From: Nitrososphaerota archaeon
GTDB taxonomy: Archaea > Thermoproteota > Nitrososphaeria > Nitrososphaerales > Nitrosopumilaceae
DNA: 64,000 bases
Reading direction: 5' to 3'
Assembly: GCA_021323705.1 (NCBI GenBank)
Contig: JAJPKL010000027.1
Location: forward strand, 1 to 64,000
Shown here: positions 29,950 through 36,091 of the stretch, piece by piece
Position numbering within the stretch: position 1 is the stretch's first letter
Layout of the letters: each line of letters begins with the position of its first letter
Translations under genes and position numbers: made by a program
Notes under the pieces: generated by a model
Told to the model about the DNA's origin: nothing
Databases searched by the model: none
What the model saw: the letters and a program-made list of their open reading frames with translations, nothing else

Positions 29950-30119
29950 ATTTAGATAAATTCGGATCAGTTGTGCTAATGTTGCCTTTAACCTAGGTGC
30001 TTTGTTGGCAATCATTTTAATAAATATGAGAGGTTGTACTCCCGCAATAGATTCTGTTAAACCTTCAAATCAATAGATTCTGCTGTAATAATCATACTAA
30101 AAGTTAATACCTCTCTTGA

Positions 30120-30232
30120 CATCTACCTTAAGGTAGGTGAGTAAAGTCTACTAGGCAACTAGTAGGATCTGGGCTGAAAGGTAGATGCCCGTGGAACGGG
30201 ATGGGACAAGTAAGCTCAGAGTCACCAATTAA
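30120..30232 (+). pseudogene. Orphan 3' end of an IS200/IS605-type tnpB with omegaRNA-like structured RNA
   Basis: Frame 30185-30232 reads MPVERDGTSKLRVTN*, resembling the tail of the tnpB at 43112-44281 (...GVDGSKLRTRS*). Hairpin CTACTAG-GCAA-CTAGTAG, hairpin CCCGT-GGA-ACGGG, long-range pairs CATCTACC/GGTAGATG and TCTGGGCT/AGCTCAGA, GGTGA/TCACC. Confidence 0.6.
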
Positions 30233-30914
30233 TTCTATTATGCCAATCCCACTGGTCTTTATGTTTTATCTTTTCCTTGATTAAATCGTAATACCTGTTA
30301 TCTAGTCTCTCAGATTTTGCAAAAACACTTCCTGAGATGTAATCGGCAATCTGCAAACATACATCATTTCTAGAATCTACGTGTTTGATCTTTACAATGA
30401 TGTCCCCTTTGAACTGTCTGCTTTTCTTTACATAGGAAATCTTTTCTTCGCAGTATTCATCAAAATGCTTGATCGCCTTCTGGGACAAGCTTCTGTCTAT
30501 TGTATAATGAATTTCATTGTATGGTACCCATGGCTTCAGATATGAATTAACAATGGTCTTGATTACATAGTCAACTGCAAGATAGTTGTATAGGATAGTT
30601 TGATTCCCTTTCAAACTGTCTTTAACGCTGTCTTTCATGACTGCTACAGTACCTAGAGATAGATCAAATGTCTTGATCTTTCTCAGGAATCTTTCACGGG
30701 TTATATGCTCGTCATTTGAAAATTTGAATTCCTCAGCTTTACCTCTGATTCGACGCCTAGTATTGATATTTTTCAGCAATCGTCTAACCTTGTTACGAAT
30801 GAATAGAGGCGTATCATTTACCATGATTACATAGCTTAACACAAAAGATCTAGTAGAATTCTGAGAAAATCCCAGATCTCCTGCCTCATCTACAAATACA
30901 TTGACTACTGGCAA
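30222..30914 (-). CDS. DUF3800 family protein (RNase H-like fold)
   Basis: VNVFVDEAGDLGF start and C-terminal HVDSRNDVCLQIADYISGSVF. Confidence 0.85.
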   Translation of the reverse strand: MPVVNVFVDEAGDLGFSQNSTRSFVLSYVIMVNDTPLFIRNKVRRLLKNINTRRRIRGKAEEFKFSNDEHITRERFLRKIKTFDLSLGTVAVMKDSVKDSLKGNQTILYNYLAVDYVIKTIVNSYLKPWVPYNEIHYTIDRSLSQKAIKHFDEYCEEKISYVKKSRQFKGDIIVKIKHVDSRNDVCLQIADYISGSVFAKSERLDNRYYDLIKEKIKHKDQWDWHNRINW

Positions 30915-30990
30915 ATACTACAGGGGGCAACATCAAGAAGTTAAGCATTATGAGTATTTGGAACCAATACTAGGACTATGGTCATTAATC

Positions 30991-31191
30991 TCAGTTGGAA
31001 CCAACCAAAATGTGCCTAAACTCTAGAAAGTCTTCTCCTGGCATATCAAAGTCAACATCTGTAGTTGATGGCTTTGCCCCAAGTAACGTCATCGCAGTAC
31101 CCCCTACTGCTACCACCGTTATTCTTCTGTTCAACTCCTTGTCAAGTTCAAGAAACCCAAGTAGCTTTGAGTTATCAAGCTTAGTAGACAT
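30991..31191 (-). pseudogene. Truncated nucleotidyltransferase (MNT/AbiEii-like)
   Basis: VVAVGGTAMTLLGAKPSTTDVDFDM nucleotidyltransferase motif (GG...DxD); ORF ends after 66 aa, far shorter than a typical NTase domain. Confidence 0.6.
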
Positions 31192-32254
31192 TGTACAGCC
31201 TCAAGACCTCCTTCATGCTCTTTTGGTCAGCCTTAACCTCCCCTGTTTTTGTGCCCTCAAGTAACCTTATTGGACTGTCAATTTCTGCCATCCCATGCGA
31301 TACCAAGTTTCTTAGCGTTCGAAGTATTCCTAGAAGCTTTTCTGCAAAATTATACTTTCGGGCAAGAAAGAGAAGCAGGTCATAATTTGTCCTCCCAGAA
31401 TTTTTTGCAAGTATAACTGGGATGGCGTTTATCCTCCTTGCGTTGTTTTGGAGCATTATTGCGCTGATTAGATATTCTATGCAGATCATCTTTCCCTGTC
31501 TTATTTGAGGTCCAAATTCCGTATAGCCAAATCTTGCAAGATTAAAAACTTGGTCTTCTTCTGTCATTTTTGCAGGATGCATCTCATGCTCACCTGCCAT
31601 TATCTTGATTCCCTCCCCTCCCGCCTTTTTGATCTCCATCCAGAAATCCTGCGGATTTAAAATGACTATCTTATTTGATAACATTTCTCTAGCAGGATTG
31701 ATTTCGTCAGATCGTAGTAGATTAAGGAACATCTTGTCCTCTAACGTCACGTGATCTATCCTTATGTTGTGTATTTTTTGTATATGATCTAAAATATCAT
31801 AAATCCCAATCTTTGCCTCTTCCATCTTTTTTCTTTCTGTTTTTCTCAAGTGAATCAATAGCTCGGCCTTGTTTAGTTTTGTATTTCTTTCCGGGTTCAT
31901 AAGAGAGATTGACTTTATCAAAAGAAAGCTGTGTAATTGCGTGTAAATCTCCATTATCATCATCTGCATCTCCTCTCTTCCTCTGAGAAAGTCTTGTTTT
32001 CTCCTCAGCTCCGTCTCTGCAAGTAGGTCAATCATGAGATAATTGTTGAAATTGATTGATATCAGTGAAGATCTGCCAGCTTTTGAAAGCGAGGTTATTC
32101 CCTCCTTTGCCATGTCATGGATCTTTTCATTGGTATTTGCATAGTACGCACCTCCATAGACCTCCTCTATCTTGCTTGTGAGCTCGTTTATTGATAGTGA
32201 CTTGCCAAGATTCCGTGTCAATATGTCAAGTATTCTGTACGTCAGCTCGTCCAT
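31181..32254 (-). CDS. HTH protein with C-terminal HEPN-like motif, partner of the overlapping NTase ORF
   Basis: N-terminal wHTH-like ILDILTRNLGKSLSINELTSKIEEVYGG; C-terminal LGILRTLRNLVSHGMAEI (RNxxxH); 11-bp overlap with NTase ORF. Confidence 0.6.
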   Translation of the reverse strand: MDELTYRILDILTRNLGKSLSINELTSKIEEVYGGAYYANTNEKIHDMAKEGITSLSKAGRSSLISINFNNYLMIDLLAETELRRKQDFLRGREEMQMMIMEIYTQLHSFLLIKSISLMNPERNTKLNKAELLIHLRKTERKKMEEAKIGIYDILDHIQKIHNIRIDHVTLEDKMFLNLLRSDEINPAREMLSNKIVILNPQDFWMEIKKAGGEGIKIMAGEHEMHPAKMTEEDQVFNLARFGYTEFGPQIRQGKMICIEYLISAIMLQNNARRINAIPVILAKNSGRTNYDLLLFLARKYNFAEKLLGILRTLRNLVSHGMAEIDSPIRLLEGTKTGEVKADQKSMKEVLRLYNVY

Positions 32255-32261
32255 CTCAATT

Positions 32262-32299
32262 TATAGTAGTTTACTATAATATTATAGTTTTTTACTATA
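32262..32299. promoter_or_regulatory. Tandem palindromic operator (two 17-bp inverted repeats, centres 21 bp apart)
   Basis: TATAGTAGTTTACTATA (32262-32278) and TATAGTTTTTTACTATA (32283-32299), 8 bp upstream of the 31181-32254 start codon. Confidence 0.6.
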
Positions 32300-33898: not shown

Positions 33899-34067
33899 TA
33901 GTCTACCCCCATTTTGAGCGTAGAAACATGACGTTTCTCGTAAAAGATATAGTTCAGAATAATGATCAATTCCCTGAGAAAACACTAACCTTGAATTTTG
34001 TACTTTGATCGAGAGGCCGTAGCCATGATGGAAGAGAGATTTCATATCTATCTACTTAAAGTGACTG

Positions 34068-34910
34068 TTATGTATCTTTTATCACATAAAATCTGCGTAA
34101 TATGGTAAACGAAACTAGTACAGATAATGCTACATAGAACGTTTGTAAAAGAAACCTACTATTTGATACGAATTTGAAGAAGCCGCGTAGTGTGAAAGTC
34201 CTTGTTATTTCTTCACTCTTGGGTCCAGTATTGAATACAATTTGAATCTTATTGGATTTTAACTTAAAATCAAAATGTGATAAGGCATTCCTAATTACCT
34301 TTGTATCTGTTTTCAAAACACCATCTTTATCCTTCCATTTTCCAGTAACAGAGAACATTTCAACCAAATCATAATCTTTAATGTCATATTTTTTTAAACC
34401 TCTTTCTATTTCACCATGAAGAATTTTTTCCATCACTTCATGTGAAGTGATTAGTGCAAAAAATAATGCGTATAGATCAACCTCTTCTACCATTTTCCTA
34501 TTGATCTTTCTTAGTACCTGCTCAAATACAGTATTAGCACTGAGAAAACGTTCTCTTTCTTCAATTATCGTTTTCATTGGATTATAATTGTCTTTTTTTG
34601 AATTTGATTTTTTACCAATTGCAAGATACGCATCTACATAGTCCTTAACATTTTTTGATATGTCTTTATTCCAATTAATTATAATACCTAAAACATCATC
34701 ATAGAGATCTTGTACGTATTCTTTTTTCAGGAAAGGTGACTTTGCTGTATTCATCTTTCTTTGAATTATGCTCAATTTTGCTGCAGTTTCATTATAAATC
34801 GGATAGGGATCTTGATCGCCTATTTTTTCAATAAATTCAGAGATGTAACCAAAAAATCCTCCAAAATGTTTTGCTATCTCTTCGTAATTTACAGATTTAT
34901 CATGAGACAT
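34068..34910 (-). CDS. Hypothetical HEPN-like protein with C-terminal TM helix
   Basis: VIRNALSHFDFKL (RNxxxH motif); LLQTFYVALSVLVSFTILRRFYV TM segment. Confidence 0.55.
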   Translation of the reverse strand: MSHDKSVNYEEIAKHFGGFFGYISEFIEKIGDQDPYPIYNETAAKLSIIQRKMNTAKSPFLKKEYVQDLYDDVLGIIINWNKDISKNVKDYVDAYLAIGKKSNSKKDNYNPMKTIIEERERFLSANTVFEQVLRKINRKMVEEVDLYALFFALITSHEVMEKILHGEIERGLKKYDIKDYDLVEMFSVTGKWKDKDGVLKTDTKVIRNALSHFDFKLKSNKIQIVFNTGPKSEEITRTFTLRGFFKFVSNSRFLLQTFYVALSVLVSFTILRRFYVIKDT

Positions 34911-34990
34911 GAGAGGAGATTATTCTAACAGACAAAATACTTTACGACAGCGTCATGTTTTTGTGAGTAGAATGGAGGTGTTCTATTTTT

Positions 34991-35008
34991 ATAGAGCCTC
35001 AGTAAAAA
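34991..35008. repeat. 18-bp direct repeat, copy 2
   Basis: atagagcctcagtaaaaa, identical to guaA 3' end at 33881-33898. Confidence 0.85.
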
Positions 35009-35073
35009 GCGTCCTACTGTGCCATTAATTCCCAGAATCCTTCACTTATATATGCATGAAAGTCTGAGTAGAC

Positions 35074-35175
35074 ATGTTAAAAAAAATAATTGCAAAGATA
35101 ATGTCTTGCTCTTGTAACAAAAAAGCTTCTGATGACATAAACGCAGTAAAAGAAGCCGAAGAATCAAAAAAATAG
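35074..35175 (+). CDS. Putative small protein (33 aa)
   Basis: Reads MLKKIIAKIMSCSCNKKASDDINAVKEAEESKK*; TATATA-like box about 27 bp upstream; not in ORF track because of length. Confidence 0.35.
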   Translation: MLKKIIAKIMSCSCNKKASDDINAVKEAEESKK

Positions 35176-35236
35176 AATTTTACATTCTACACCTTTTTTT
35201 CCTAACAAACCCATACAACCGAATTGCAAAATCGAA

Positions 35237-35578
35237 TTATTTGCCAAGCTCTTTCATTTTTGCTTCAAGAGTGGATAACCTTCTTTGTGTAACATCCATT
35301 GTACGTTTTAAAACATCAACCTCACCCCGGTTCTGCCTTTCCATCTCGTTTATGCTGTCAAACAAGACTTTGGCCTCTGTTGTCATTCCATTGTCATTCT
35401 TATCTATCCGGGCTGCAAGATGCTTATAGTCCTCTTCTAACTTTTCCAGCCTATTCAAAGTCTCTTCCATTCTTGCATTTACTCCATTAACTTCCGTATG
35501 AATTGCGCTCAATTCTTCCTCAATTTTGTTCAAGGAAGGAGCAAGAAACCTTCCGATTCCTGAAATCTTATTGTCCAT
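35237..35578 (-). CDS. Hypothetical coiled-coil protein
   Basis: Heptad-rich KIEEELSAIHTEVNGVNARMEETLNRLEKLEEDYKHL. Confidence 0.65.
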   Translation of the reverse strand: MDNKISGIGRFLAPSLNKIEEELSAIHTEVNGVNARMEETLNRLEKLEEDYKHLAARIDKNDNGMTTEAKVLFDSINEMERQNRGEVDVLKRTMDVTQRRLSTLEAKMKELGK

Positions 35579-35702
35579 GATTAGCCATGTGTGCAGTTCC
35601 TAGTTAAAGAGTACTAGTACCAGACTACAATTGCACCCTCTTTCTTCGTGAAAATCTGACGTTTCTCGTAAAGCTTAAGATCTGTACGAGATCAGTAATT
35701 TT

Positions 35703-35960
35703 ATGCATGCAAAGACTGCTATTCTGATTTTAGGAATTGTTGTAATCATAATAGGGATCTCAATTCCTGCAATATCATCTCAGATGTGGTGGTCTAAGCC
35801 AAGCAAGGTTCAAAACGGTATTGGAATCATGCGACCAGCTACAGCATCAGACTTGTTTTTGATGTCTCTGAGTAGAATATGGCTGCAGATTACAGCAGGT
35901 GGCATAGGAATAATCTTGATCGATGTTGCATTTTTCTTCTTGAAAAGAAAGAAATTCTAG
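35703..35960 (+). CDS. Small protein with two TM segments
   Basis: AILILGIVVIIIGISIPAIS and LQITAGGIGIILIDVAFFFL. Confidence 0.6.
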   Translation: MHAKTAILILGIVVIIIGISIPAISSQMWWSKPSKVQNGIGIMRPATASDLFLMSLSRIWLQITAGGIGIILIDVAFFFLKRKKF

Positions 35961-36091
35961 AACTGCCAGCGGGTACTTGCCCATTTGACAAGGTCATAAT
36001 CCATAATTGAAAACTTTGTAACATTTGTCGGTTTGTTCACAATGAGGCATCTAGACTAATTTTAAACCAAGTCAGAATTGCTCAGGATTGC

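Follow-up and report, generated by a model that had tools for sequence, protein, structure and literature searches.

Nucleotidyltransferase (NTase) toxins have been described chiefly in bacteria and are exemplified by AbiEii and MenT. The AbiEi/AbiEii pairs are type IV toxin–antitoxin systems, formed by COG5340 and DUF1814 proteins, and include Rv2827c/Rv2826c and MenA3/MenT3. AbiEi represses its own operon via promoter repeats and neutralizes the NTase toxin by its C-terminal domain (PMC3985639, PMC7319586). The HEPN/MNT toxin–antitoxin systems are also two-gene modules with an NTase partner, and helical HEPN-like domains fused to NTases are often devoid of the HEPN motif (PMC3710099).

The 64-kb stretch of DNA analysed here, referred to as the window, carries a two-gene module that we read as a degraded copy of an archaea-wide, autoregulated operon of toxin–antitoxin type, similar to AbiEi/AbiEii but made up of unnamed families (probability roughly 0.6). 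The winged-helix (wHTH) protein is probably the antitoxin and repressor, and the DUF6036 NTase is probably the toxin, which reverses the roles assigned in the original prediction. Judged by its sequence, the putative toxin gene is dead in this genome and the regulator has been left as an orphan. The features of the region are as follows.

31181–32254, minus strand: regulator gene (probable antitoxin), 357 aa, intact, of an unnamed archaeal family; open reading frame with homologues 32–71% identical
32045–32254, minus strand: winged helix (residues 1–70) with the recognition region YGGAYYAN; AF2 model and Foldseek matches to wHTH regulators
31616–31918, minus strand: NTase-like alpha/beta core (residues 113–213), probably non-catalytic; AF2 strand/helix order, Foldseek and conservation
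31196–31561, minus strand: C-terminal all-helical domain (residues 232–353); AF2 model and conservation
31295–31312, minus strand: RNLVSH (residues 315–320), a proposed HEPN motif, not conserved; alignment A3
30991–31191, minus strand: truncated DUF6036 NTase (probable toxin), 66 aa, with GG and DVD motifs kept; alignment of relatives
32261–32299, no strand: candidate operator array of four half-sites TATAGT/ACTATA; repeat search and conservation
30064–30976, no strand: DUF3800/DUF3800-X RNA cassette, ∼82–83% identical over 916 nt to cassettes of relatives
30222–30914, minus strand: DUF3800 gene, part of the cassette; Pfam PF12686, 5.6e-13
30135–30227, plus strand: DUF3800-X structured RNA, part of the cassette; Rfam RF02984, 50.7 bits versus a cut-off of 38.2

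The module shares with AbiEi/AbiEii a bicistronic arrangement with the regulator first and the NTase second, a regulator with an N-terminal wHTH and a larger C-terminal domain, promoter repeats, and a pol-beta-type NTase with hGG-x13-DhD. The AbiEi-like architecture, an N-terminal wHTH with a separate C-terminal domain, is seen in the AF2 model (pLDDT 91.8). The differences lie in the sequence families, the operator and the host range. The regulator has no sequence match to AbiEi families, and no member of its family matches AbiEi (COG5340) in Pfam or NCBIfam; AbiEi/Rv2827c is also absent among the 50 Foldseek matches listed. The partner is DUF6036 and not DUF1814, and AbiEii is matched by single members only (0.097 in Pfam, 0.0027 in PADLOC). 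The AbiE operator consists of 23-bp inverted repeats, whereas 6-bp half-sites at ∼10–11 bp steps are found here, and the present module is so far archaeal only. Thus the module appears to be AbiE-like in its working, yet on the basis of its sequence families it lies outside AbiE.

The original prediction placed the two open reading frames exactly, as well as the 11 bp (31181–31191) that they have in common. Both are real genes, because more than 35 homologues of the regulator are found, all of them archaeal, and nearly all are followed by a DUF6036 NTase with the same short overlap; the proposed NTase partner is thereby borne out. Relatives of the regulator are present in Nitrosotalea, Nitrosotenuis, Nitrosopumilus, Nitrosarchaeum, Nitrososphaera, Bathyarchaeota, a Euryarchaeota MAG and Diapherotrites. 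Across several archaeal phyla the order is the same: the regulator, then a ∼170 aa DUF6036 NTase that overlaps the regulator 3′ end, usually by 8–14 nt. The regulator family has no convincing match in Pfam or NCBIfam. A single-sequence search of the genome contigs with the regulator gave no match; a profile search of genome contigs found 27 loci of the family. The distribution is patchy, with a real regulator in 14 of 101 related genomes. Within the same 101 genomes the NTase subfamily occurs in those 14, together with one C-terminal relic in G087. The genes around it vary between genomes, so that we regard this patchy module as probably mobile. The regulator protein of the window has changed no faster than those of its relatives (dN 0.19 versus 0.20, with dS saturated), and therefore either the regulator is still under selection or the loss of the NTase is recent.

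Other gene pairs were encountered in the course of these searches. At L035 (G101:C11), a 268 aa HTH protein (1264–2070) has a helical region that resembles the regulator family (E 2.8e-6), and its gene adjoins a DUF2204/DUF6036-like NTase at 631–1110; this suggests that such operons form part of a wider superfamily. Another archaeal operon of a regulator and an NTase, distinct from the present one, was detected via weak NTase similarity at L096 (G026:C95, 548–2307), where a 312 aa HTH protein and a 274 aa NTase are encoded with a 4 bp overlap. Near the module in the window is a 280 aa open reading frame (34068–34910) that has no convincing Pfam or PADLOC match and lies where the sequence is AT-rich (GC 0.345 at 34001–36000).

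The predicted structure of the regulator is based on an alignment of 27 sequences (mean pLDDT 91.8, pTM 0.88); a run without the alignment gave a pLDDT of 34.5 and was discarded. The N-terminal winged helix that had been proposed is present in the model at residues 1–70, with helices at 3–14, 22–33 and 38–50 and strands at 54–59 and 62–67. Two linker helices join it to an alpha/beta core whose strand–helix order is that of pol-beta NTases, and in our reading of the model residues 113–213 may be assigned to the pol-beta NTase fold. A conserved KLN[K/R]xE in the core replaces S-D-x-D. With N128-[K/R]129-x-E131 in its place at the catalytic site, the core is probably no working NTase. Residues N238, G243-Y244, E260, R273 and K284 are invariant in the C-terminal helical domain. 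No Foldseek match to the model has an E value below 0.001. The best full-length matches are the nucleotidyltransferases AAD(9) and AadA, at E 0.01–0.03, which is suggestive but not significant, and the best viral structure match is an annotated nucleotidyltransferase (E 0.056). AadA and AAD(9), like the regulator, have a helical domain after the NTase core, but the regulator adds a wHTH and has K/R and E at the two positions where catalytic Asp would be expected. Homology of the core to the partner NTase was considered and was not found (profile comparison probability 0.3%). A weak similarity between residues 221–355 and the C-terminus of the thermosome (E 7e-5 and 4.5e-4; L015 and L016) is attributed to chance: the hhalign probability is 8%, a PDB profile search was empty and the predicted structure of the region is all helical.

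Upstream of the regulator gene are two tandem 18-nt repeats (32261–32278 and 32282–32299), in agreement with the tandem, autoregulatory-looking operators originally described. The half-sites TATAGT/ACTATA start at 32262, 32273, 32283 and 32294, in steps of 10–11 bp, and no other such cluster of four is found in the 64 kb. The core palindrome ACTATAATATTATAGT is at 32273–32288. Four of 101 genomes contain the palindrome ACYATAATATTATRGT, and in each it lies immediately upstream of the regulator gene and nowhere else. Nearly all homologues have related tandem half-site arrays in front of their genes, and this holds for Bathyarchaeota and a Diapherotrites MAG as well.

The array varies together with the recognition region of the winged helix. 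All seven regulators with the recognition region GDYKN have ACCATA/TATGGT half-sites (7/7), and those of YYxN type mostly have ACTATA. In a tree built from residue 71 onwards, which omits the wHTH, a single clade of the seven GDYKN regulators is rejected (p-AU 8e-5). Independent changes to GDYKN are matched by a change from ACTATA to ACCATA in three of three cases, although these three independent pairs alone give p = 0.25. The L047 regulator has a wHTH nearest to that of L051 (63%) and a remainder nearest to L045 (80%), and it looks like a swap of wHTH plus promoter. Such a mix, with the wHTH and promoter of one clade and the body of another, is what joint movement of winged helix and operator would produce. 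The conserved, co-varying array indirectly supports binding of the regulator to the promoter repeats and repression of its own operon.

The 66 aa partner has the proposed GGTA...DVDF signature (VAVGGTA...STTDVDF), which corresponds to the GG-x13-DVD/DID (pol-beta motifs I/II, hGG ... DhD) that is near invariant in NTase alignment A2. Full-length relatives are ∼170 aa DUF6036 proteins; the partner is nearly always of this length among the homologous loci, and the window copy is cut short. DUF6036 (PF19502) is matched by all 11 of 11 aligned NTases (best 1.3e-13). Full-length L002 scores 47.8 bits against a cut-off of 23.6, whereas the window fragment scores 11.5 bits and falls below it. The fragment aligns to its relatives at residues 1–62 only, homology ending at 31006; the remainder of the domain is missing, and with it the conserved K/R motif. 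It also has a one-codon deletion and reads STTDVDF versus STIDVDF in relatives. The 66 aa protein is a truncated enzyme and not a natural short form, as had been suspected in the original prediction. Within the literature searched, DUF6036 is named in no paper.

The remainder of the NTase was sought within the 64-kb window and was not found, which argues for loss or replacement and not for simple insertion. The DUF3800 cassette starts ∼30 bp from the end of NTase homology. Copies of the cassette are found at other loci in two relatives (L079 and L081) with both ends coinciding, and its arrival therefore probably removed the end of the NTase. The DUF3800 gene with its DUF3800-X RNA behaves like a mobile cassette, and the RNA is present in 10 of 61 related genomes. 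Loss of the NTase is a recurrent theme. Where the regulator is intact, the NTase is intact at 29 loci and broken or missing at 8. The opposite occurs once, at L069 of a MAG, where the NTase is intact and a single frameshift breaks the regulator. The breakage of the NTase could also stem from errors in MAGs or, were the enzyme harmless, from relaxed constraint. At L013, in a one-contig genome (G006), the NTase frame is broken near 2653, in the run of G residues coding for the GG motif. The two genes differ in their nearest relatives: the NTase fragment of the window is nearest to that of L046 and the regulator to L043/L044, which suggests that the two genes can reassort.

The AbiEi precedent makes the regulator most likely an antitoxin and autorepressor, and the NTase most likely a toxin. 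According to this model, the wHTH protein would bind the tandem half-site array in its own promoter and repress the operon, and the NTase-like core and helical C-terminus (residues ∼74–357) would probably neutralize the DUF6036 NTase. If the NTase acts in the manner of AbiEii/MenT, it would arrest growth through the addition of nucleotides to tRNA or some other component of the cell. Strict co-occurrence of the two genes and the repeated loss of the NTase lend indirect support to an NTase that would be toxic alone and neutralized by its partner. The window copy was cut after ∼62 residues, probably on arrival of the DUF3800/RNA cassette, so that the repressor/antitoxin would now be an orphan, its operator still intact. 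Perhaps, and this is offered tentatively, the antitoxin is a catalytically dead NTase fused to a DNA-binding domain that neutralizes or mimics the active NTase via its pseudo-NTase core, with the operon tuned by a promoter array that evolves along with the winged helix and is exchanged with it. If so, dead-NTase antitoxins would represent a distinct, archaea-wide class of NTase toxin–antitoxin systems.

The original prediction was of a HEPN/MNT-type toxin–antitoxin module, in which the 357 aa protein, an HTH-fused HEPN RNase, would be the toxin and the NTase the antitoxin. LRNLVSHGM does fit R-N-x3-H when the window sequence is taken alone. Among homologues, R315 is present in 13 of 28 and H320 in 10 of 28, and the H column is a gap in 16 of 28 (alignment A3), so that a conserved HEPN RNase site is excluded. 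Poor conservation of R and H had been named in the original prediction itself as grounds for its refutation. The AF2 model shows the wHTH and a helical C-terminus but also an NTase-like core, with RNLVSH at the end of helix 304–317 and in the following loop. HEPN family profiles from Pfam, NCBIfam and PADLOC have no match in the regulator family, and although the C-terminus is all helical, no HEPN structure is among the 50 Foldseek matches listed. The regulator thus differs from HEPN toxins in having no conserved Rx4-6H and in carrying an extra wHTH and NTase-like core. In addition, the NTase is the gene that is repeatedly lost, and the opposite would be expected were it the antitoxin. Motif loss is common in NTase-fused HEPN-like domains (PMC3710099), and the C-terminal helices could have a remote HEPN-like origin, but a HEPN toxin here is very improbable. 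What stands of the original proposal is a probable autoregulated pair of toxin–antitoxin type.

Alternatively, the operon could be regulatory or metabolic and not toxic. The wHTH protein would then sense a ligand via its NTase-like/helical pocket and derepress an NTase whose substrate would be a small molecule, in the manner of antibiotic nucleotidyltransferases. The best full-length matches are indeed aminoglycoside adenylyltransferases, and the invariant polar residues N124, N128, E131, E260, R273 and K284 suggest that a pocket has been kept. Yet the patchiness (14 of 101 related genomes), the variable neighbours and the repeated NTase breakage better fit a selfish or defence module, and this explanation is possible but doubtful. 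Anti-virus abortive infection, in which the NTase is released from the regulator upon infection, would be a special case of the AbiE-like reading. AbiE is a phage-defence toxin–antitoxin system (PMC3985639), and the gene order is the same and the distribution patchy, but the neighbours are not consistently defence genes and the window regulator has no PADLOC match. Such a role is unlikely.

The AbiE-like toxin–antitoxin reading thus presents a familiar logic in a degraded local copy, with an unnamed family and a well-supported operator. As the regulator family is unnamed in Pfam and NCBIfam, its genes are currently annotated as hypothetical. The array and the recognition helix that changes with it provide a testable DNA-recognition rule: GDYKN with ACCATA, and YYxN mostly with ACTATA. 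An archaea-wide operon of unnamed families with such logic would extend NTase toxins to ammonia-oxidizing and related archaea.
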